Of a DNA stretch of 48,584 nt, positions 10,141 through 48,584 are shown in pieces (within the stretch, counting starts at the first letter, position 1; each line of letters starts with the position of its first letter). Source of the stretch: a virus; IMG/VR virus record IMGVR_UViG_3300022200_000072, positions 1 to 48,584 of that record; one strand, 5' to 3'. Position numbers and translations under genes: made by a program. A model generated the notes under the pieces. That model was given only the letters and a program-made list of their open reading frames with translations, searched no databases and had not been told where the DNA came from.

Positions 10141-11996
10141 TAATGTATCTCACTATATCTTGTGCCTATTTGAACGTCTACGTCCAAGTCTCTATTGAGA
10201 CCTAATAATTTATTTACTGCTTGTACGGAATCTTTTAGTTTCTTCTCAGTAGTAGCCTCCTCACCAATCTTCACTAAAGATATTGTTTCATCGTGGAACT
10301 GGCCAATAGGCATAATACCACGTTTCATCATTTGTTTAACCCAACAGTCAAAGGCGTACACCCCTGTCCCTTGGTTTAATGTGGAAAATCTATCTTTGTC
10401 GTACCTCAAAGAATACCACATTTGACTTACAGGATTGAACAACCACATCTGGCTACCAATCTTCTTAACTACACAATCCTCCGCTATAGCCTTAACAGAC
10501 CAGTTACGTTTCCAATAAGCGTCTAGTAACTTCTTAGCCTCTGGCTCTGTAACACCAGTAGACCTAGCTATACTAGTAGCCCCTACCCCATAGATAGCTG
10601 AGTAGTTAACCTGTTTGTATACATGACGCTCCTTTTTATAACTAACCTTGCCATCCTTGTGGTCTTGTACTTGTTGCTTGGTTAAACCCCCTGCTGCTAT
10701 AGCCATATCTAAATGTGGGTCAAAGTCTGCTGTGTTCATTTCTGTAACATAGTCAGGGTCATAAGGCCACATATAATGCTGCTTAGTTCTATCCTCAAGA
10801 GAAGACATATCAGAGCCACATAGAACGTATCCGTCAGGGCATATAAGACATCCCCTCACTTCTTTACCGTAAGGTTTATCGACCCCTATAAGATTAACTA
10901 ACGTTCTATGCTTAAACCTGAGGGTGTTGGTTAAACCACCTACCTGAGCCTTAATATACCCATCTTCGTCAACATCTCTGAGGAATCCCTCGAAGACACC
11001 TATCCTGTGGGTTATTATAGAAAGACCTTCAAAGGTTTCTAAGGCTGGCTCTTTGTCGTACAGCTTCTTGATACTAGGGCATATATCCCCCCCACTATTC
11101 TTAATACCAACCTGTGGTATCTGCCTAACTTCCCCTGTCTCCTTGTTACGTTTAAACTCAAACGTCTCAGGAATCCAACCTAGTGAGTACAGCCAATCCT
11201 TAACTTGTACATGACTAGCTGGGTTAGGCTCTTCTTCCCTGTCTACTACCTCAACCTCTTCTGTGTCTTTAGGTAGTGATAACTTATCAAGCAGAGTAAA
11301 CCAGTCAACACCAGCAACAGATAGCTCACCAGACTTCTTGTACGGCTTAGCAGGGCGTTTCTTAACCTTAGTAATAACCTTGCTAGGCATAACCTTTATA
11401 AGCGTCTGGAAGGCTTCCTGTTGAGCCTGAGTGAGCTTGTCTAGTGTCTCCTTAGCTAATACACTGTCTAACTTCCACTTCAAGTCTTCTTGTATCTGTG
11501 CACATTTCATCTTGAAGGAGAGGTAGCGTATTAACTTCCACATAGAAGCTTCATCATCATAGATTAGGAGTAGGTCACGTTTCATCTTCTCCCAAAGGAG
11601 AGTATTAATACGCACATCTTCCTTAACACGATGGAGATACACCTCAAGTGGTTGGTTGTCCCAATCTTCTACTTTAGGCTTAGGTACTCCGAAGTATTCC
11701 CCCCACTCCTCTAGTCCATGCTTAACCTTAGTGGGGTATAGATACCAAGAGATAGCTAACGTATCAACTATCTGAGCTTCCACTTTAATATCTAATAGAC
11801 GTTCTACTACAGGTATGTCATACCTCATGCAGTTGTGGGCTATTAGTATATTATCAGGGTTAGTGAAGAACTTACGCATATTGGCATAGTTAGCTGTAGC
11901 TCTAACTGGTACGTCAGAGCTAGGACATGCCCCTAGACAATGTATCTTGGTTGGGGTGAACCCATTAGCCTCAATGTCAAATATTTGTTCATTCAT
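10140..11996 (-). CDS. Family A DNA polymerase with 3'-5' exonuclease
   Basis: 618 residues, slightly shorter than T7 gp5 (704). The proofreading domain starts at residue 7 with DIEANGF (Exo I D-x-E), and the Exo II block is near YDIPVVERLL (about 59). The polymerase domain has motif A as CGSDMSSLEDR (about 393-403), motif B as KQVNYSAIYGVGATSIAR (about 461-478) and motif C as GQFHDETISLV (about 567-577, catalytic HDE). All key residues are present. The ATG lies within the last codons of sigma-like factor 1 (8-base overlap). A GGGAG site precedes it. It replicates the phage genome with the primase-helicase and SSB encoded beside it. Confidence 0.95.
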   Translation of the reverse strand: MNEQIFDIEANGFTPTKIHCLGACPSSDVPVRATANYANMRKFFTNPDNILIAHNCMRYDIPVVERLLDIKVEAQIVDTLAISWYLYPTKVKHGLEEWGEYFGVPKPKVEDWDNQPLEVYLHRVKEDVRINTLLWEKMKRDLLLIYDDEASMWKLIRYLSFKMKCAQIQEDLKWKLDSVLAKETLDKLTQAQQEAFQTLIKVMPSKVITKVKKRPAKPYKKSGELSVAGVDWFTLLDKLSLPKDTEEVEVVDREEEPNPASHVQVKDWLYSLGWIPETFEFKRNKETGEVRQIPQVGIKNSGGDICPSIKKLYDKEPALETFEGLSIITHRIGVFEGFLRDVDEDGYIKAQVGGLTNTLRFKHRTLVNLIGVDKPYGKEVRGCLICPDGYVLCGSDMSSLEDRTKQHYMWPYDPDYVTEMNTADFDPHLDMAIAAGGLTKQQVQDHKDGKVSYKKERHVYKQVNYSAIYGVGATSIARSTGVTEPEAKKLLDAYWKRNWSVKAIAEDCVVKKIGSQMWLFNPVSQMWYSLRYDKDRFSTLNQGTGVYAFDCWVKQMMKRGIMPIGQFHDETISLVKIGEEATTEKKLKDSVQAVNKLLGLNRDLDVDVQIGTRYSEIH

Positions 11997-12501
11997 ACTT
12001 CTCCCTCAATTTAGCTAAGAAATTCTTAACTGTTGTTCTAACGTACGTACTATTATGTCCAGTAATCTGGACTATCTCCCTAGGCTTATACTGATTGATG
12101 AAGTATAGCTGGCATATCTGCTTAACATCCCCATCTAGCTTAGCTACGTCACGTTTAATCTCCTCAAGGAGTTTATTATCTGTGCCGAAGCATGACTCAA
12201 CTATGTAGTCACTATCTTTTATCTCATCAGCTAAACCACCTAAGCGTTCCTCCTTTCGGAAGTCAATGGCACATCCATGCAATATCCTATTGAACCACTT
12301 AGTAAGAGAGCCTAACCTGTGGTCAAAGGAATCCTTGTAGTATAAAGCTCTTGTAAAGGCTTCTTGCACTACATCCTCTGGCCCCCATTGTGCTAGACGC
12401 TCTGGGTTATAACTCCCTTGGCTGATAAGCCTAGAGGCTATACGTACAAAGTCTAACCTTCGTTCTTCGTATAGCTTAAGTATCTCTGCTTCTACATTCA
12501 T
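11989..12501 (-). CDS. Sigma-factor-like protein 1 (ECF type)
   Basis: 170 residues with the two-domain layout of extracytoplasmic-function sigma factors. The region 2-like block is WGPEDVVQEAFTRALYY...GSLTKWFNRILHGCAIDFRKEER (about residues 39-85). The region 4-like helix-turn-helix is QICQLYFINQYKPREIVQITGH...VKNFLAKLREKYE (about 127-170). The DFRKEER end of region 2 fits -10 binding. Such a factor would redirect host RNA polymerase to phage promoters, as phiEco32 gp36 does; that role is inference. It sits between primase-helicase and polymerase, overlapping the latter, so it is probably a middle gene made before late transcription. Confidence 0.7.
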   Translation of the reverse strand: MNVEAEILKLYEERRLDFVRIASRLISQGSYNPERLAQWGPEDVVQEAFTRALYYKDSFDHRLGSLTKWFNRILHGCAIDFRKEERLGGLADEIKDSDYIVESCFGTDNKLLEEIKRDVAKLDGDVKQICQLYFINQYKPREIVQITGHNSTYVRTTVKNFLAKLREKYE

Positions 12502-14150: not shown

Positions 14151-14165
14151 TACATTTCTCCTTTA

Positions 14166-14220
14166 GTATAACATTATACCTGTGTTGGTTGCGTTTTGTG
14201 TAAATTATTTTTTATTATAC
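14166..14220 (-). promoter_or_regulatory. Conserved element, copy 6: promoter of primase-helicase
   Basis: On the minus strand it reads TACACA (14202-14197), 18 bases, TATAAT (14178-14173), preceded by an AT-rich tract of the UP-element kind. The predicted start lies near 14166, 16 bases before the TTG start codon, leaving room for AGGAG. Here the element points towards its gene, as in copies 4 and 5. It separates sigma-like factor 2 from the replication genes. Confidence 0.7.
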
Positions 14221-14658
14221 AGCCCATTCCAATCTAAACTTCTTAAAATCTTTCTCAATAGCTTGTCTAGTAACACCAAACTCCTTGGCCGCTTCCTTAG
14301 TACTATGTAACAAAGCATAGTACATACGCTGAGTTAGTTTAGGCAATATCTCTGACAAATATACGACATTGAAATTGTAGTTCTGGTGGCTCTCGCCCTC
14401 TATACGTAAGTCTTCCCAGCTCTCAGCTATACTTTCCTCATCACGACCCTTAGACTTATACTTACGTGCCCTCTCACTCATTACTTGACGCACTTGTAAC
14501 ATTAGATAGGGGAACTCCTCCCCTTCAATATACCCAGCCATGTTAGATAGAGCCTGCACAAATACATCATGGCAAATATCTTCTACATCTTGCTCAGGTA
14601 CAAATCTAAGTCTAATCTGTTTACAGATAAACTTCCTGTATGAGTATAGGTTATCCAC
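14215..14658 (-). CDS. Sigma-factor-like protein 2 (ECF type)
   Basis: 147 residues from a GTG start preceded by GGAGG six bases away; an ATG five codons upstream (14673) lacks such a site. The region 2-like block is FVPEQDVEDICHDVFVQALSN with FPYLMLQVRQVMSERARKYK (about residues 20-70). The C-terminal LTQRMYYALLHSTKEAAKEFGVTRQAIEKDFKKFRLEW (about 108-146) is a region 4-like helix-turn-helix. It resembles sigma-like factor 1 in layout but is clearly diverged in sequence. It follows the ATP-grasp gene with a short overlap, so its expression is tied to the amidoligase island, unlike factor 1, which lies in the replication operon. Confidence 0.6.
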   Translation of the reverse strand: MDNLYSYRKFICKQIRLRFVPEQDVEDICHDVFVQALSNMAGYIEGEEFPYLMLQVRQVMSERARKYKSKGRDEESIAESWEDLRIEGESHQNYNFNVVYLSEILPKLTQRMYYALLHSTKEAAKEFGVTRQAIEKDFKKFRLEWAV

Positions 14659-15403
14659 TAAACGCCTCCACATATTTCTCTAACGTAGTGCCCATTAAGC
14701 CACACGCTGTATTAACTTCCAGTACCATAACTCTACCAGCCTTAGTCCATACTACATCTACTGCCCCGAAGTCTAGCCCTAGAGCTGCTACGGCTCTCAC
14801 AGCAGCATCCTCAATACCATCTTCTGGTTGACAATCACCTCTAGCGAATATAAACCCACCAGCTAGGTTACGTACCTTCCAATTTACTTGGTCATCAGGA
14901 ACATCACGACTACGTGCCTTACGTTGTCTATCAATAACCTTACCATTGAATACATGGATACGGTATTCATTAGCTATACGTTCCCAGACAGTGTACAAGG
15001 GGGCAGGCACTAGCTCATCTACAGTGGATGCAATAACTATACCAGCTCCAGAGTTACCTGTCAACGTGGTACGGCAGAATATTTTAGACTTGTGGTCTAA
15101 CTCCATGTGCAACTGAGCGTTGTCTTTCTGTGTGTAAAAAACTGGAGCTGGTATCTTTGCATCTTTTAAACAACATAGTGTAAGAAACTTATTAGCGGCA
15201 GTTTCTACACATAGTGAATCATTCAAAACTACAGCATTGCCCTCAATATTAGCTGGTAGCCTACTACACCCCCAGTTAATAACACGTTTACCAGCAGGTT
15301 TAAACTTACTACCCTCACGCTTAATTTGCTTAATACCTAACGCTTGAGCTAATGCCTTAGCAGACTTACTGCCCTTCTTGTATGGGTATATAAATGTTTT
15401 CAC
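14651..15403 (-). CDS. ATP-grasp ligase
   Basis: 250 residues. The ATP-grasp signs are NKFLTLCCLKDAKIPAP (about 91-107), a glycine-rich TLTGNSGAG loop (about 133-141), NEYRIHVFNGKVIDRQRKAR (about 164-183) and the metal-binding end DFGAVDVVW...VMVLEVNTACGL (about 209-236). This fold joins a carboxylate to an amine through an acyl-phosphate. Phage ATP-grasp proteins of this kind occur with amidoligases in predicted peptide or amide modification pathways (Iyer and colleagues described such neighbourhoods). It is the last gene of the amidoligase island in transcription order and overlaps the membrane-protein gene upstream by four bases. Confidence 0.8.
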   Translation of the reverse strand: MKTFIYPYKKGSKSAKALAQALGIKQIKREGSKFKPAGKRVINWGCSRLPANIEGNAVVLNDSLCVETAANKFLTLCCLKDAKIPAPVFYTQKDNAQLHMELDHKSKIFCRTTLTGNSGAGIVIASTVDELVPAPLYTVWERIANEYRIHVFNGKVIDRQRKARSRDVPDDQVNWKVRNLAGGFIFARGDCQPEDGIEDAAVRAVAALGLDFGAVDVVWTKAGRVMVLEVNTACGLMGTTLEKYVEAFSG

Positions 15404-21977: not shown

Positions 21978-22002
21978 ACAATACCTCTCACATTTAATTT
22001 AA

Positions 22003-22060
22003 AAATAAATTACACAAAACACCTCTAACAGAGGTATAATAGTATATACTAGTAATACAT
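22003..22060. promoter_or_regulatory. Conserved intergenic element, copy 3
   Basis: On the plus strand: TACACA (22011-22016), 18 bases, TATAAT (22035-22040), AGTATATACT. As a promoter it would point right, against the local leftward genes. In the leftward direction the spacer forms a perfect hairpin CCTCT-GTT-AGAGG followed by TGTTTTGTGT, which looks like a terminator before the unknown SH3-like gene. The arrangement is the same as in copies 1 and 2. Confidence 0.6.
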
Positions 22061-22067
22061 TAAACCA

Positions 22068-22211
22068 TTAACTAATTAGTTCTAGTCCTAATGGCTTAAC
22101 ATTCTTTCTTACAAACTCGTTAACAATATGTTTCTTATCACGAAGGATAAGGATACCATTAACAAATAAATCATACGATTGCATGGTTAATGCTTTCTTA
22201 ATCTGATACAT
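22068..22211 (-). CDS. 47-residue hypothetical protein
   Basis: Read from the gap between the GNAT gene and element copy 3. The ATG has GGGGA five bases upstream and lies one base after the GNAT stop. The product begins MYQIKKALTMQS and has a LFVNGILILRDKKHIVNEFVRK core, which suggests a small beta-hairpin plus helix. Not recognised. The strong ribosome site and close packing support it as a gene. Confidence 0.55.
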   Translation of the reverse strand: MYQIKKALTMQSYDLFVNGILILRDKKHIVNEFVRKNVKPLGLELIS

Positions 22212-23279: not shown

Positions 23280-23870
23280 CTATTGCATTGGTATATCGAA
23301 GTTTGTATCAAGTTTAGCGGCATCATCCGCCATGAATTGTAACGCCAAGCCTAAGTCAGTGCTAGTCACACCACCAGCCATAATAGCTTCCATTACTTCG
23401 GCAATAGTCATACCACCTTTGGTTTCATCAAGCGCAGCCTTTACTGTACTAGTAAGCTTTTTACCATAGTCAAAAGCCTCCTTAACAGCGGGGTCTTTAC
23501 CAAAGTCATACCAGCTAACTTCTGGCGCAAGGTTATATTCAAGCACATCAGCACTAGGTGATTTCTTAAGCGTCAACTTCTTAACATCCCAAGCAACTGA
23601 TTTGCAGCACAATACTTCTTTGACATACAAGGCAATCTTTTGACCATTCACACCCTTGGTTTCATCAGCCTTGGCTAGTACAGCAGACAACCAAGATAGG
23701 TTATTAGTTACCTGACCACCAGATATACGGGCAGCCTCATTCACCGCTACAATAAGCAACTGTTGTAGTTGTTTGTTACGTCCAGTAATACCAGCAAATA
23801 CATCTGATAAAGCTGAGTTGAACTGCTTGCTAGTTTGTACGTTGTTAACATCGAATTGTTTTAAAGCCAT
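23280..23870 (-). CDS. First early protein, unknown function
   Basis: 196 residues from MALKQFDVNN, chosen because GGAG lies nine bases upstream. The frame is open 27 codons further, into the structured leader, without a ribosome site. Soluble and mixed alpha/beta, with a SWLSAVLAKADETKG helix-turn and an acidic C-terminus (DDAAKLDTNFDIPMQ). Not recognised. It is the first gene after the leftward promoters and the structured RNA region, so it should be among the earliest and most strongly expressed. Confidence 0.6.
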   Translation of the reverse strand: MALKQFDVNNVQTSKQFNSALSDVFAGITGRNKQLQQLLIVAVNEAARISGGQVTNNLSWLSAVLAKADETKGVNGQKIALYVKEVLCCKSVAWDVKKLTLKKSPSADVLEYNLAPEVSWYDFGKDPAVKEAFDYGKKLTSTVKAALDETKGGMTIAEVMEAIMAGGVTSTDLGLALQFMADDAAKLDTNFDIPMQ

Positions 23871-23904
23871 GATAGCATTCTCCAAATAAATTATGTTGTT
23901 ATGT

Positions 23905-24579
23905 TCCAAGTGAACACAAGAAAGCCCCCTGAATATGCTTGACATATCCAAGAGGCTTGAATTCTATTCACTAGTTTAAAGACGTAGCCTTTCCCGTGCT
24001 ATTGGTACTTGCTTGCCTAGACCTATAAGATATACCAAGCAATACATGCTAGGTGTATAAGTCAATCATCCTACGTCTGAAGGTTTACCAGAATTTCACT
24101 GGTTTCTGCCCTTTCCAGTTTATTACATTCAAACTGGTAAATTCATGCTCATTAACCCCACACCATACGTGGTCAGCATACATCGGACAACCTACAAGGC
24201 CCGCTGTTTCAATAGTATTTTGTTATGGCCTGATAACATTACCAACACTGATATATTGTGAGGGCGCAGGTATCCACCAAGATAGGAACTATCTAGTCAC
24301 TTGTTTAAGGCACAAGTTACACATAAGCCTAGCGGGTTAACAACTCAGATGTATCTTACTGGTCATATTAACAAGCTACAATTTGTCCTGTACACATCTG
24401 GCTAGACGTCTTAGGTTTATTCTAAATCGTTGTACTGGTATCCACTATACACTATCTGTTTACGTTGTCAACCATTTTGTTATTCGCTCAATCCGTTAGG
24501 ATGTAATTGCTATTAGTAGGCACTCAGTGCTATGCTTCTGGCATTTAAGTGGAGCAATCCACTACCTACTAACTAACTG
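23905..24579 (-). ncRNA. Candidate large structured RNA (leader or independent ncRNA)
   Basis: No gene lies between 23870 and 25372. On the minus strand 23905-24579 contains many helices. A 16-bp hairpin (23922-23937 with 23943-23958) includes three G-U pairs that exist only on the minus strand, which fixes the sense. It is nested in AGTGAA/TTCACT (23909-23914, 23967-23972). A domain is closed by AGACGTAG/CTACGTCT (23980-23987, 24071-24078) and holds two crossing helices (24009-24015 with 24036-24042; 24016-24020 with 24049-24053), an H-type pseudoknot topology. Others are ACCAG/CTGGT (24087-24103), CCAGTTT/AAACTGG (24115-24137), AGATAG/CTATCT (24280-24294), ACTTGT/ACAAGT (24299-24317) and CAGATGT/ACATCTG nested in CTAGC/GCTAG (24329-24405). 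Size and style recall GOLLD or ROOL phage RNAs; identity is untested. Confidence 0.55.
24444..24471 (-). promoter_or_regulatory. Early promoter P2 (sigma70-like)
   Basis: TTGACA (24471-24466), 16 bases, TATAGT (24449-24444) on the minus strand, with a predicted start near 24437. The bases TAGTG before and TACCAGT after the -10 box are shared with promoter P1 142 bases upstream. It would drive the structured RNA and the early genes. Confidence 0.7.
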
Positions 24580-24585
24580 GTAGAC

Positions 24586-24613
24586 ATCATACACTAATAG
24601 TATCTAGTGTCAA
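24586..24613 (-). promoter_or_regulatory. Early promoter P1 (sigma70-like)
   Basis: TTGACA (24613-24608), 16 bases, TATGAT (24591-24586) on the minus strand, with a predicted start near 24579. It is preceded by GG and followed by TCTACCAGT, matching P2. Near-consensus boxes fit use by unmodified host RNA polymerase at the start of infection. Confidence 0.7.
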
Positions 24614-25371
24614 CCTTTAAGTGAAGGCCGCTTAACCGGTTGACTTACTTAACTTGGGATAAGCTTATAGGTAAACTAAACATAAGTCAATAACTATTTA
24701 CATTAATAGTCAAATTAATATCTATACATTTATATGTAACACACACGTGAATAGCATATACAACGCAGTATGTAAACAGCTTTGTTTAGCCCTGCGTATA
24801 CTAGTATATAATAAGCATATAACCTTAGCTTATACTTAGCGTTAACCTATTGATATATAAGGGATTGCAACTGGTGTATGTCACGGGAGTGTATTGCACC
24901 ACATACCCCAATGGTACAACTACTACAGGATACTAAAGGGGGTAGGAGGGGGTATGGGGGTACACTGGTAGTAGTGCATTGCAACTACAAATTTTCTCAC
25001 AGAAATTATGACATCTTGACTATGCTTAGTATATGCTTAGCTGTATACATTCTCCGAATGAGGTATGTTAGGTTACGTTAGAAAAGAAGAAAGAAAATAT
25101 ATTTGAAAAATATTCTACACAAAACTGATTATTCTAGGTATAATACCATAGGGATTAAAGATTTATCTAGTATACACTCGAAGAGTGAATTAGGCTAGAG
25201 TATATTAATTATTAAGAATGAATTATGAAATAGTTTGATTCGTTCGAAGAACGTATACATTAGGCAATGGGGAAGTCTATGAGGGTTGGGAGTGTCCTAG
25301 CCGAAGAACCACACATAATAATAATGGACTAAACAAATGGAAAGGATAATAATGTTTAATGAGAAAACACA
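24614..25371. other. Gene-free divergent control region
   Basis: This AT-rich stretch lies between the leftward early block and rightward late block. On the left, 24614-24645 forms a hairpin with 24607-24613 (GTCAACC/GGTTGAC around TTAAG/CTTAA). A partial core of the conserved element, CTAGTATATA, occurs near 24800. Simple hairpins with three-base loops occur at 25048-25060, 25175-25187 and 25241-25253. The last two share the loop context TCGAAGA and lie in the leader of the late mRNA. A seven-codon frame (25351-25374) with its own AAGGA site overlaps the first late gene (ATGA) and may couple its translation. I see no convincing gene; a 67-codon frame at 24878 is rejected. Confidence 0.5.
25105..25150 (+). 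promoter_or_regulatory. Conserved element, copy 5: late promoter
   Basis: TACACA (25116-25121), 17 bases, TATAAT (25139-25144) on the plus strand, preceded by an AT-rich tract. The predicted start is near 25151, about 220 bases before the first late gene. It lacks the AGTATATACT palindrome next to the -10 box, although TAGTATACA occurs 25 bases downstream. Its orientation agrees with the genes, as in copies 4 and 6. Confidence 0.65.
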
Positions 25372-26745
25372 ATGAGCGATATTACGCTAACAGAAGTACG
25401 TTCTGGTTATAATCTAGGAAAGATAAACGAGAACTTTGAGAAAATAGAAGATGTTGTTAATGATGATATATTACACCTAAGTGGTGGTAATAACATTATG
25501 CGACAGAGTCTAGATATGAACAACTATAGTTTATCTAATTTACCAGAGCCAATATCCGACACTGACCCTGTAAGACTTAAGGATATAAGTGGTGCAGGTG
25601 ATGGGTTGTCTGTGGCTGTTAGTGAGGAAGTATTAGTAACGGTAGCAGGGCAAACAACCTACACTTTTACAAGCGACAGAGAACTAGCAGGTAGTGCAAT
25701 ATTCATCCGAGACTCAAATGGGGACACAGGAGCCAAGCTTCTCAGAAACTATGACTACGACCTTCGACCTGACATTGACGCATATACGCTGACGTTACGT
25801 AGAGCGTGGGAAGGGGGGCTACTGCTCCAGCGTATTTATAGCGTAGCTTATGCCGAGTCATCTGACCATGCATCACTAGTATCACTAGAGTCTGTAGTAT
25901 ATAACGTCACGACAGGGCTACTCGCTACTAATACTCTGGCGCAGAATGCTACACCCAATTCCGCATTCCTTACTATTAGTAACGCGGTAACTGATGAGAC
26001 TTCTGGGCTGGCAGCCACCAACACCATAGCTCTAGCTGCCACCCCTAATAGTTCGTTTATAACCTTGCAATCAGCAGTTAATGATGAGACTACTGGGTTA
26101 GCAGCTACCCTATCTTTATCAAGTGGACTAGATACTGCGCTGGGTGAGTACCGTTCTACTGCTCAGCTAACTGTTGATGTGGATGGTAACTTAGGTTTGG
26201 TGCAGCTTGATGGAACTGCTACTCTTACTACGTTCAAAGTACAGACTGACTTAGTGCAGTTCTTAGATGACAATGGAGTACCTTTCATAGAGTTTGATGT
26301 GGGCCTTAACAAGGCGTCTTTCTTAGGTGCAGTATATGCTGATGAGATAATAGGAGATACAGCAGCGGGAGCTGTAACTACGCTAGCTGCAGTAATCGTA
26401 AGCTCTGGTAGCCCTGCTGAAACTGATATAGTAGAGTTTACCGTTAGCGCCCAGAGTTATGCTAGAGAAGTGTTCATTCCCATGCCGTATATAGCAGCTT
26501 TCTCCGCAGGTACTCTTAGCGCAGCGCTAGTTAAAATATATAAGGGGGGAGTTCTCCAGAGTTCACAGGCGTTGTCAGGGGACTACTCTCACGGAGGTGC
26601 CCCATTTGTATTCGCACTTGCCGCACTTGAGGCTGCAACATTTAAGTTAACTCTTACATATACAAGTGGTGGGGACACCGTAGCATTTGGTAGAGGTTAC
26701 GCAGTGTCAGTATTCAGAGCTTCTGACCAAATTACATTCATCTAA
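25372..26745 (+). CDS. Tail fibre / tailspike adaptor protein
   Basis: 457 residues. The N-terminus (NLGKINENFEKIEDVVNDD then MRQSLDMNNYSLSNLPEP...DTDPVRLKDI) is the motif set of many phage tail fibre or adaptor heads. Residues about 100-160 resemble T7 gp17-type head domains (TYTFTSDRELAGS, DYDLRPDIDAYTLTL). About residues 180-245 hold two and a bit copies of a 30-residue repeat (T-x-GL-ATNT...ATPNS-F-T). The C-terminus is beta-rich and probably a distal tip. It is followed after 25 bases by the tailspike, which it may link to the virion. It is the first late gene. Confidence 0.7.
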   Translation: MSDITLTEVRSGYNLGKINENFEKIEDVVNDDILHLSGGNNIMRQSLDMNNYSLSNLPEPISDTDPVRLKDISGAGDGLSVAVSEEVLVTVAGQTTYTFTSDRELAGSAIFIRDSNGDTGAKLLRNYDYDLRPDIDAYTLTLRRAWEGGLLLQRIYSVAYAESSDHASLVSLESVVYNVTTGLLATNTLAQNATPNSAFLTISNAVTDETSGLAATNTIALAATPNSSFITLQSAVNDETTGLAATLSLSSGLDTALGEYRSTAQLTVDVDGNLGLVQLDGTATLTTFKVQTDLVQFLDDNGVPFIEFDVGLNKASFLGAVYADEIIGDTAAGAVTTLAAVIVSSGSPAETDIVEFTVSAQSYAREVFIPMPYIAAFSAGTLSAALVKIYKGGVLQSSQALSGDYSHGGAPFVFALAALEAATFKLTLTYTSGGDTVAFGRGYAVSVFRASDQITFI

Positions 26746-32877: not shown

Positions 32878-33110
32878 AGATTAACTGGACTAAAGGTTTA
32901 GATAAAGACCAGACCAAGCAAATGGAGGACGCCTATGATGCGTCCGCCTTACTTCGTAAGAGGCTGGGGGAGTTACTAACTGATAAATATGAGACTTGTG
33001 AGAAAGTTTCTATATCTAAAGAGTTATACAACTCCCCTAATTGGGCTTACTTAAAAGCTGACGAAGCTGGTTATAAGCGTGCTATTTCAGAAATATTAAA
33101 AATAATTTAA
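32874..33110 (+). CDS. Small hypothetical protein after portal
   Basis: 78 residues, GTG start overlapping the portal stop (GTGA). Charged and helical (KGLDKDQTKQMEDAYDASALLRKRLGELLTDKYETCEK), with a Trp-Tyr patch (NSPNWAYLKADEAGY). Not recognised. It occupies the place where many podoviruses have a small head-assembly or packaging accessory protein. Transcription restarts just downstream at element copy 4. Confidence 0.55.
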   Translation: MKINWTKGLDKDQTKQMEDAYDASALLRKRLGELLTDKYETCEKVSISKELYNSPNWAYLKADEAGYKRAISEILKII

Positions 33111-33170
33111 AAATAATCTACACAAAACGTAAAATTCTAGGTATAATAGTATATACTAGAAATACTTTAA
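33111..33170 (+). promoter_or_regulatory. Conserved element, copy 4: capsid-operon promoter
   Basis: TACACA (33119-33124), 17 bases, TATAAT (33142-33147), AGTATATACT, with AT-rich DNA upstream. The predicted start is near 33154, about 40 bases before the scaffold gene. This is the best-formed copy pointing at its genes and would boost transcription of scaffold and major capsid. Confidence 0.7.
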
Positions 33171-33194
33171 TAATATTAAGGATATAAATAATTA

Positions 33195-33938
33195 ATGTTT
33201 ACTGATAAAGATGACCAATCTGATAAAGTAACAGAAACACCTTCAACTGTTAGCTTAGACGACCAATTAAAGTTAATTGTAAATTCAGAAGGTAAGCAAA
33301 AGTATGAGTCTGTAGACAAAGCAATTGCTGCTTTGAAAGCGTCACAAGAATTCATCCCACAATTAGAGAACGATAATAAAACCCTCAAAGAAAAGCTCGC
33401 AGAGCTTGAAGCGGAGTTATCTAAACGTTCAAGTGTAGAGGATGTAATTTCTAAACTTTTGCCAAAAGAAGATAAAGAAAAAGCAGAGCCAGCCAAGGGC
33501 ACACCACCCGATAATGGTATCAACGAAAAATCTGTTGAAGAACTTTTATCTTCTCTATTAAATAAACGTGAAGCAGAAACATCTCGCAAGAGTAATCAAG
33601 AGACTGTTGAGAAAGCGTTTATAGAGAAGTTTGGAGATAGTGCAAAGACCAAGTTCTCTGAGTTAGCTAAAGAGTCTAACTTATCAATTGCTGAACTACA
33701 AGAGTTAGCCGCTAAGTCCCCGTCAGTAGTGTTAAGACTATTGCCAGAGTTTAAGCAAGCTCCTAAGACAACCTCTGGTGGATTTAATACATCAGCATTG
33801 TTTAGTAGACCGCAGCAAGAACAACCTTTGCAAGACCCCAACAAGTCACTGCTAGCAGGGGCCAACTCCAAAGAGGTACGAACCGCTTGGAGAGCACATG
33901 TCGAAGCAGTACATAAAAAACTAAATGTTGAATCATAA
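33195..33938 (+). CDS. Scaffolding protein
   Basis: 247 residues, strongly charged and helical. A coiled-coil segment (FIPQLENDNKTLKEKLAELEAELSK, about 53-77) is followed by acidic-basic linkers and a small basic C-terminal region (REVRTAWRAHV-like, about 228-247) of the kind that binds capsid protein. It lies directly upstream of the major capsid gene, the standard place for a scaffold. The assignment rests on composition, size and position. Confidence 0.8.
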   Translation: MFTDKDDQSDKVTETPSTVSLDDQLKLIVNSEGKQKYESVDKAIAALKASQEFIPQLENDNKTLKEKLAELEAELSKRSSVEDVISKLLPKEDKEKAEPAKGTPPDNGINEKSVEELLSSLLNKREAETSRKSNQETVEKAFIEKFGDSAKTKFSELAKESNLSIAELQELAAKSPSVVLRLLPEFKQAPKTTSGGFNTSALFSRPQQEQPLQDPNKSLLAGANSKEVRTAWRAHVEAVHKKLNVES

Positions 33939-46983: not shown

Positions 46984-47804
46984 TAGACTTTAGCAAGGTA
47001 AAGCCTGTAAGAGCTAATATAGATTTCAAAAAAGTAAAGCCTGTTATTGCAGATGCAGCTACAAAGCCCACTGTTATAAAAGATAGTCCTACAGAATATA
47101 GTATAGACTTCTCACAGTTAAAAGCTGTCCGTAGCTCAGACTCTCCAATACTTCCAAAGGGTGTGTCTAAAGAGCAAATACTTGATGAAGGGTTGCGCTC
47201 TAAGAGAGAAGCTGCTTTAGGTAAGACTTTCACTGATATAGAGGAAAGGAAAGCTAGGGACTTAGAACTTGAGAAAGATTTAAACACTCCTAAGTCAAGC
47301 TTTGGTTGGCCTACAGAGAAAGACCAATCTGGCAAACCTAAAGTGTACCTAGGCGCTAAAGCAGTGAAGAGGGTGTCTGAGTTATCTAATAAGGAGTTAT
47401 CCTTAGCGGAGCGTAGGGTAGTGGAGGAGGAGGGATACGTTGCTGGGGATTATAAGGATGATAAAGGGATACAAACTAGTGGTGTTGGACAAACTGGTAA
47501 GTGGAGTGGAAAAACATTCTCAGAGACATTTGAATCCCACAAGCAAGATGCTAGACGTTTAGTTAAGGATTTCGATAGTATGCCAGAGTACCTACAGGCT
47601 GAGTTAGTACAAATCACATACAGGGGGGATTTACAACAGTCCCCTAATATGAGGAAGTTATTAAACTCTGGTAAGTATAAGGAGGCTGCTAAGGAGTTAT
47701 TAAATAACCAAGAATATATTAAACGTAAGAAGAAAGGTGATGATGGAGTTACTAGGAGATTGGAAGCTTTACATGATGCTATTATTAAATATAGTAGAGA
47801 GTAA
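46980..47804 (+). CDS. T4-type lysozyme with IDF-repeat leader
   Basis: 274 residues. Residues 1-50 contain three spaced repeats of IDF-(S/K)-(K/Q)-(V/L)-K-x-V. The C-terminal domain (about 141-274) is a T4 lysozyme-type glycosidase. E151, D160 and T166 have exactly the spacing of T4 lysozyme E11, D20 and T26, within EEEGYVAGDYKD and GIQTSGVGQTG. It hydrolyses peptidoglycan. The N-terminal extension and its place after the internal virion proteins suggest a virion-associated enzyme used at entry, but it is also the only endolysin candidate I see. It overlaps the preceding gene by four bases. Confidence 0.85.
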   Translation: MIDFSKVKPVRANIDFKKVKPVIADAATKPTVIKDSPTEYSIDFSQLKAVRSSDSPILPKGVSKEQILDEGLRSKREAALGKTFTDIEERKARDLELEKDLNTPKSSFGWPTEKDQSGKPKVYLGAKAVKRVSELSNKELSLAERRVVEEEGYVAGDYKDDKGIQTSGVGQTGKWSGKTFSETFESHKQDARRLVKDFDSMPEYLQAELVQITYRGDLQQSPNMRKLLNSGKYKEAAKELLNNQEYIKRKKKGDDGVTRRLEALHDAIIKYSRE

Positions 47805-47810
47805 TAGATT

Positions 47811-47866
47811 AAGTATTTACTAGTATATACTATTATACCACAATTAGAGGTGTTTTGTGTACAAAA
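47811..47866. promoter_or_regulatory. Conserved intergenic element, copy 2
   Basis: Nearly identical to copy 1 in its core (TTACTAGTATATACTATTAT). On the minus strand: TACACA, 18 bases, TATAAT, pointing left. The spacer hairpin is weak here. The GTG start of the lipoprotein gene falls inside the conserved TTTTGTGTA box, so the element and the start codon are fused. Confidence 0.6.
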
Positions 47867-48189
47867 AATTAAAATATATTTCCTTTGCTCTCTTTCTTAT
47901 AACGTTTAGTGGGTGTTCCTCATTACCATTCATAGGTGGTGGGGTTCCCTCATTGGGCGTAGAAGCTACGCTAGGGGATAAACAAGAGTCAGTGGTAGGT
48001 AGTATAGGGGATAGCCAACAACTCTCCGTAGATAGCGTCTCAGGAGGTATTACGACCAATAATACACAGGAGGTTCCTATAGAGTTTATGCTATTGATGG
48101 TGTTGGGCTGGTTACTACCTTCCCCAAATGAGATATGGAAAGGTTTTAAAGGTTTTATTCAAATATTAAGGGGAAAGGGCAATGGCTAA
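47857..48189 (+). CDS. Lipoprotein, probable spanin
   Basis: 110 residues, GTG start with GAGGTG upstream. A basic n-region (MYKKLKY) and hydrophobic stretch lead to the lipobox TFSGC with Cys20, so it should be lipidated and exported. The body (VEATLGDKQESVVGSIGDSQQ...) is polar. A C-terminal hydrophobic segment (EFMLLMVLGWLLPSPNEIWKGF, about 76-97) follows. An outer-membrane lipid anchor plus a C-terminal membrane segment is the topology of single-protein spanins; an Rz1-like role with the 111-residue protein at 1469 is the alternative. It lies directly after the lysozyme gene. Confidence 0.65.
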   Translation: MYKKLKYISFALFLITFSGCSSLPFIGGGVPSLGVEATLGDKQESVVGSIGDSQQLSVDSVSGGITTNNTQEVPIEFMLLMVLGWLLPSPNEIWKGFKGFIQILRGKGNG

Positions 48190-48469
48190 GAAGGGTCAAA
48201 CAAAAGCTACAGCTACCAAACGTAGTAAGCAACAACGAGCGTACAATAGTTCACCAGAGCAGAAGAAGCGTAGAGCACAACGTAACGCTGCTAGAGCTAA
48301 GATGGAGAAGGAAGGTAAGGTGTCTAAGGGTGACGGGAAAGACGTTGACCATAAGGATAAGAACACTTCTAATAACTCAAATGGTAATCTGAGGGTTAAG
48401 TCTAAGAAGGCTAACCGTGCAGATAATCGCTCTACTGGTGGGCGTAAGAAGAAAGGCGCTAAGAAATGA
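48182..48469 (+). CDS. Small basic HNH-like protein, copy B (uninterrupted allele)
   Basis: 95 residues, the same first 89 residues as copy A at 597-884 with many synonymous base changes, ending KGAKK. There is no HNH gene downstream: the stop overlaps the next ATG (ATGA). This is therefore the uninserted form of the locus. It overlaps the lipoprotein gene by eight bases, whereas copy A follows the holin gene. Confidence 0.7.
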   Translation: MAKKGQTKATATKRSKQQRAYNSSPEQKKRRAQRNAARAKMEKEGKVSKGDGKDVDHKDKNTSNNSNGNLRVKSKKANRADNRSTGGRKKKGAKK

Positions 48470-48584
48470 TAAAGGAGCGTATCTTAGAGGGGATTATAGC
48501 CTTATGTGTACTAGCCATAGCTGCCCTAGGTAATAACTACTACGATTTATTGAAGGCTGTAGATAAGCAGGAGCTTGAGGGGAT
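48458..48584 (+). repeat. 127-base exact repeat of 1461-1587
   Basis: The terminal copy of the repeat described at 1461-1587. The identity ends exactly at the last base of the window on the right and at c48457 on the left. Confidence 0.9.
48466..48584 (+). CDS. Membrane-anchored coiled-coil protein, 5' part
   Basis: The first 39 codons of the gene at 1469-1804, identical in sequence, cut by the end of the window. Not a broken gene: the contig stops here, and the rest is expected to be bases 1588-1804. Confidence 0.8.
   Translation, partial: MIKERILEGIIALCVLAIAALGNNYYDLLKAVDKQELEG

Follow-up and report, generated by a model that had tools for sequence, protein, structure and literature searches.

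The region between positions 23905 and 24579 of the window is probably transcribed as the long untranslated 5' end of the early operon mRNA, a leader that would act in cis as an entry gate for the host RNA polymerase. The window, i.e., the whole stretch of DNA that was analysed, is a 48,584-base virus record from a Zobellviridae podophage; its large terminase shares approximately 70% identity with the enzymes of Salinivibrio phage CW02, Pseudomonas phage PA11 and Zobellviridae Vibrio phages. The early and replication genes, including that of DNA polymerase A, extend up to position 23870, mostly on the minus strand, and the structural genes are located on the plus strand from 25372 onward. The two gene arms are split by 1.5 kb (23871-25371), in which no credible gene was found, as had been stated in an earlier reading made from the letters alone (the sequence-only reading). 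A metagenome contig of the same virus (L001/L004) was 99.97% identical across this gene-free region. The sequence therefore did not arise from misassembly in a single sample. The following features are considered below:

23280-23870, minus strand: first early gene (196-aa product, functionally unannotated PHROG 14737), identified by its translation and homologues
23905-24579, minus strand: untranslated early leader RNA, proposed from the absence of ORFs and from folding
23909-23972, minus strand: long 3' hairpin, resembling a terminator or an RNase III substrate, 38 nt ahead of the early start codon
24444-24471, minus strand: putative early promoter P2, TTGACA-16-TATAGT, 11/12 consensus match
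24500-24579, minus strand: weak 5'-terminal folded domain at the predicted P1 transcript start, suggested by a sliding-window z of about -2
24586-24613, minus strand: putative early promoter P1, TTGACA-16-TATGAT, 11/12 consensus match and tandem arrangement in relatives
24938-24960, plus strand: G-tract (C-tract on the minus strand), which accompanies the conserved element in relatives
24975-25007, minus strand: family-wide conserved DNA element (AATTTCTGTGAGAAAATTTGTAGTTGCAATGCA), outside the leader RNA
25095-25145, plus strand: copy of a dispersed repeat with TACACA-17-TATAAT

Homologues of the first early gene were found in Melvirus and ICP2. Their products begin with MALK or MALQ, and because the homologues begin with MALK, the start codon could be fixed at 23870. 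Both P1 and P2 are read leftward, through the leader, into this gene. Sigma70-type matches at 11 of 12 consensus positions occurred only three times in the whole 48.6 kb, all on the minus strand, and two of them were P1 and P2. By chance, 0.046 such promoters were expected per strand in the region, and none of 500 shuffles contained two. The two strong minus-strand promoters noticed in the sequence-only reading are thus real sigma70-type consensus matches. Transcription would start near 24579 from P1 and near 24437 from P2, which lies 142 bp downstream of P1; in relatives, the two promoters are mostly 129-182 bp apart. No strong independent promoter for the first early gene was found in the window. 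The third 11/12 match (TTGACA-17-TATAGT, minus strand, position 15064) is located inside the early gene cluster.

The longest minus-strand ORF inside the leader does not exceed 32 codons. Tandem sigma70-type promoters directed into the early cluster and a long ORF-less stretch before the first early gene, from which a transcribed leader may be predicted, place the region among the Zobellviridae early leaders, a group defined by position. The tandem promoters, their direction, the first early gene and the layout in relatives all support the minus strand as the RNA strand. The same evidence bears out what the sequence-only reading had offered as a fallback, namely, that the early mRNA has a very long leader. 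Zobellviridae phages have no RNA polymerase of their own (PMC9960094). Two sigma-factor-like proteins are encoded among the early genes, at 11989-12501 and 14215-14673, which fits the use of the host polymerase with a phage sigma factor later in infection.

The most prominent structure of the leader is the 3' hairpin. Its inner part (23922-23958) consists of 17 pairs, including G-U pairs, with a 3-base loop, and, as had been claimed, pairing is complete only with the G-U pairs available on the minus strand. An outer helix of 8-10 pairs extends it to approximately 27 pairs. The extended hairpin has a folding energy of -33.2 kcal/mol (z = -6.35; 0 of 200 shuffles). Only 6 of the 17 pairs of the inner stem are G-C, and the U-tract is broken or weak (UCUUGUGUU), so termination at the hairpin is uncertain. 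Such a long stem with a weak U-tract would be consistent with both partial termination and cutting by RNase III. In 8 of 16 leaders, including that of the window, the final 130 nt before the gene fold strongly (z of -2.4 or lower). A U-tract after the hairpin is absent in most relatives. A terminator-like hairpin precedes the gene in the window, ICP2 and L037; in GP100, L039, PQ867839 and CW02, a strong hairpin without a U-tract was found, which leans towards processing.

The rest of the leader was found to fold no better than shuffled sequence. For the whole 675-nt block, z was between about -2 and -2.6 when the minus strand was folded, compared with -1.4 for the plus strand. After removal of the 3' hairpin from the minus strand, the 602 nt upstream gave z = -0.63, and 30 of 100 dinucleotide shuffles were as stable. 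A scan with 150-nt sliding windows singled out two places alone, the 3' hairpin (z about -5) and, less clearly, the 5' end at 24451-24650 (z about -2); the leader interior ranged from about -0.8 to +1.1. When 24440-24580 was folded alone, z was -0.31, compared with about -2 for the 5' end in the sliding windows. Random sequence of equal length and composition also gives many helices. As the 602 nt upstream are no more stable than their dinucleotide shuffles, the "at least ten helices" noticed earlier correspond to chance expectation, and the folding results give no sign of selected structure in the leader interior of the window phage. The sequence-only reading had itself named folding energy no lower than that of such shuffles as evidence against a structured RNA; this was found for everything but the hairpin, which stood.

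The equivalent region was compared in fourteen other lineages, some of them named phages and others metagenome contigs. Between genera, the leader sequences could not be aligned. Nevertheless, the same layout, in which an ORF-less leader of 0.5-0.8 kb follows two or more TTGACA promoters, recurred in eight of the fourteen lineages (Klyazma, ICP2, PQ867839, L035, L043, GP100, CW02 and PQ867847). The promoters are mostly located about 800 and 670 bp ahead of the first gene: at -857/-728 in Klyazma, -824/-666 in ICP2, -818/-680 in PQ867839, -842/-683 in L035, -830/-699 in L043 and -807/-625 in GP100, compared with -742/-600 in the window. The distances are shorter in CW02 and PQ867847. In PA11, L036, L037, 177E, L015 and L039, promoter spacing or leader length does not fit. 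A motif, TAAGGCCGGCAGGCAT, was observed near the early promoters, in the P1-P2 region, of PQ867839 (L025), PA11 (L022/L052) and, with one change, PQ867847 (L017); it is absent from the window.

Among the named phages, Vibrio phage ICP2 (Zobellviridae, Icepovirus) resembles the window in having three sigma70-like promoters, annotated in its record at the equivalent place, a long ORF-less leader, a hairpin right ahead of the first early gene and the same gene order, with the homologue of the window's first early gene being the second gene there. It differs in that it has two boxA sites and a leader without detectable sequence similarity to that of the window. Similarities of 15-16 bases between the window and ICP2 leaders were out of order and at chance level, and they were rejected.

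In an unsupervised motif search across the leaders, an rrn-type boxA ranked first and was the most widely shared motif. When 10 or more of the 11 positions had to agree with GCTCTTTAACA or GTTCTTTAACA, 20.3 kb contained 12 hits on the sense (RNA) strand versus 0 antisense hits. These were distributed among six lineages: Klyazma, ICP2 (with its relative Saratov-12), CW02, PQ867839, PA11 and L039. Some copies are located upstream of a promoter and would act only on longer transcripts. In the window leader, no boxA was found: the best match was 8/11, which is the shuffle level, and looser matches were also at chance level. In a reporter whose 5' UTR carried a 567-bp noncoding insert, boxA relieved the Rho termination that the insert provoked, and this effect depended on NusB (PMC4807359); an anti-Rho role of boxA is therefore proposed for the relatives. 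For the window, such a role would be an analogy only.

Taken as the early leader, the region may function as follows. The host sigma70 RNA polymerase would enter at P1 and P2, adjoining the genome end, soon after injection, synthesize approximately 530-670 nt of untranslated RNA and then meet the very strong hairpin ahead of the first gene. The hairpin would terminate part of the transcription, or RNase III would cut it, and the leader RNA and early mRNA would thereby be separated. In the six related lineages, boxA would load host NusB/S10 and shield the polymerase from Rho across the untranslated stretch.

Two known systems are comparable. In E. coli rrn operons, the tandem promoters are separated by slightly more than 100 bp, and the leader contains boxA and is processed by RNase III. 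These leaders share with the region studied here tandem sigma70 promoters and a long untranslated leader, as well as, in the six related lineages, boxA; however, the window has no boxA, and its leader runs into protein genes. Lambda nut and HK022 put are antitermination leaders that govern the passage of host RNA polymerase. The likeness is that of an early phage transcript whose leader would control this passage, but no N protein, nut element or put element was identified.

Structure and conservation were also studied in the leaders of relatives. In nearly all of 14 leaders, the sense strand of the last 450 nt before the gene folded better than shuffles (mean z about -3), and it folded better than the antisense strand in most of them, with L035 and GP100 as exceptions. 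An alignment of L039, L051 and PA11 covered sequence located upstream of the leader and was excluded. ICP2-group strains were 96-97% identical over the final 536 nt of the leader, compared with 91-97% for the two adjacent genes and 80-91% for the DNA between the conserved element and the leader. The consensus fold of six ICP2-type leaders contained three pairs with compensatory changes. As 16 of 500 shuffles reached the covariation score and 47 of 500 reached the count of compensatory pairs, the control is only suggestive, and covariation in ICP2-type leaders is weakly supported.

In two Melvirus genomes, a 101-nt three-way junction was found in which 27 positions differ and all 36 pairs are kept, with 0 broken; 8 pairs are kept by double changes and 4 by one-sided changes via G-U that fit the sense strand. 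The structure was itself derived from these two sequences, as their alifold consensus. In random mutants with an equal number of changes, double changes averaged 1.9 and never exceeded 6. Since the antisense strand also folds with comparable double changes, it is the four one-sided changes that carry the argument for the strand. Leader structure is thus supported by covariation in one Melvirus pair, in a leader positionally equivalent to that of the window. A covariance model of the junction gave no match in the window or in other genera.

These data bear on another possibility, in which the region encodes a separate noncoding RNA that is abundant, extends over about 0.5-0.67 kb up to the hairpin and works in trans, e.g., through binding to transcription or ribosome factors of the host. 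Such an RNA would agree with the terminator-like hairpins of the window, ICP2 and L037, with the separate promoter that Klyazma and 177E have between the leader and the gene, with the strong purifying selection on the ICP2 leader and with the covarying Melvirus junction. However, the lack of a strong promoter of its own for the first gene of the window, an interior structure that is not beyond chance and the finding that leaders of different genera share no sequence or structure other than boxA, promoters and one short motif make this explanation unlikely. A broader version would be a family-wide, fast-evolving, rrn-like early noncoding RNA of lytic Zobellviridae, encoded beside the terminus, freed in stable form at the hairpin and acting in trans, e.g., in the boxA lineages, as a boxA decoy drawing NusB/S10/SuhB off rRNA operons; it is put forward here as a speculation with a small chance of being correct.

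The DNA upstream of the promoters was also analysed. The 33-bp element at 24975-25007 and the C-tract that follows it were the best conserved DNA of the region, and the element was found in 33 of the compared loci and in 20 stretches of a viral contig collection. Klebsiella phage Klyazma has 711-bp terminal repeats with Sanger-verified virion ends (PMC9960094). In this phage, the element, with two mismatches to the pattern, is located 78 bp from the terminal-repeat boundary, and the repeat holds both early promoters and a boxA. It follows that the region adjoins the packaging terminus, which, by the Klyazma offset, is predicted near 24900 in the window, outside the leader. L005, L045, L049, L008, GP100 and Vibrio phage 1.235.O all terminate no more than about 140 bp from the element, counting only true contig or record ends, since locus ends are not always such; this fits the predicted terminus. 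The element is probably a packaging site and near-terminus marker for Zobellviridae, judging from its conservation and position.

It was also considered whether the region serves mainly as a DNA signal (a packaging terminus, terminal repeat or replication origin), with the leader being an untranslated spacer with a hairpin. The short distance between the element and the verified Klyazma repeat, the record ends clustered near the element and the unstructured interior of the window leader are in its favor. However, the element and the predicted terminus (about 24900-25010) lie outside the leader, and relatives conserve the leader sequence and its pairing on the RNA strand. This explanation is therefore regarded as improbable, and an early leader RNA adjoining the genome end remains the preferred reading.

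Homologues of the leader were searched for in several ways. A DNA search found none. Searches through the neighbouring proteins in viral and genome contigs returned the same virus again, leaderless relatives or leaders that could not be aligned. Judged by its terminase (83%), L005 is the closest relative, and its sequence stops 41 bp beyond the conserved element, short of the leader. In Rfam searches at the gathering score, and at E up to 10 over 23850-25400, no family matched; neither GOLLD, ROOL, HEARO and OLE nor the phi29-type packaging RNA family gave a covariance-model match. At the gathering score, twelve relatives likewise showed no leader family, only tRNAs and one type II hammerhead ribozyme in GP100 (L031:573-644; 39.8 bits, gathering 37), located on the early strand between the conserved element and the early promoters.

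The headline proposal of the sequence-only reading, a large ornate RNA in the style of GOLLD and ROOL, was therefore not upheld. The leader resembles these RNAs in its size of several hundred nucleotides and in being phage-encoded, and only this size and its place in a gene-free phage region argue for such an identity. GOLLD and ROOL are often found near tRNA islands (PMC12286853), but the window contains no tRNA genes, and its leader has neither an Rfam match nor a demonstrated extended structure, its interior being at the shuffle level. With the known classes already refuted by the Rfam search, membership in one of them or in a new class of the same style is very improbable. A packaging RNA similar to phi29 pRNA and encoded beside the genome end would fit the adjoining predicted terminus, but it is hardly credible, as no Rfam family of any kind matched, the terminase is of the Zobellviridae type, and we know of no packaging RNA for a terminase of this type.

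For the window, the analysis mainly corrects the earlier proposal: the region is best read as a long early leader that has a single strong hairpin and not as a giant ornate RNA. The comparison across the family is the more useful part. The shared leader, tandem promoters, boxA in several genera, the covarying Melvirus junction and a location inside or next to the terminal repeat give future tests a concrete basis, also in the well-studied phage ICP2. In the searchable literature, which leaves most subscription journals outside, no description was found of how Zobellviridae use the host polymerase early, and the searchable papers held nothing relevant on ICP2 transcription or on boxA in phage early leaders. 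As far as this literature shows, the family-level leader pattern is modestly new.

Two further observations were made in the window. A dispersed element around GGTATAATAGTATATACTAG, with TACACAAAAC nearby, is present in six copies in both orientations close to gene starts (64-141, 14164-14212, 21994-22071, 25095-25145, 33098-33196 and 47802-47879) and is probably a phage-specific promoter or operator; the copy at 25095-25145 is the probable promoter of the tail-fibre and structural genes. In addition, the record end (48167-48584) repeats 582-868 (90% identity) and then 1437-1587 (99%), skipping an HNH-like gene at 881-1432. The end of the record thus looks like a circular or redundant end that carries a version of the genome without the HNH-like gene.
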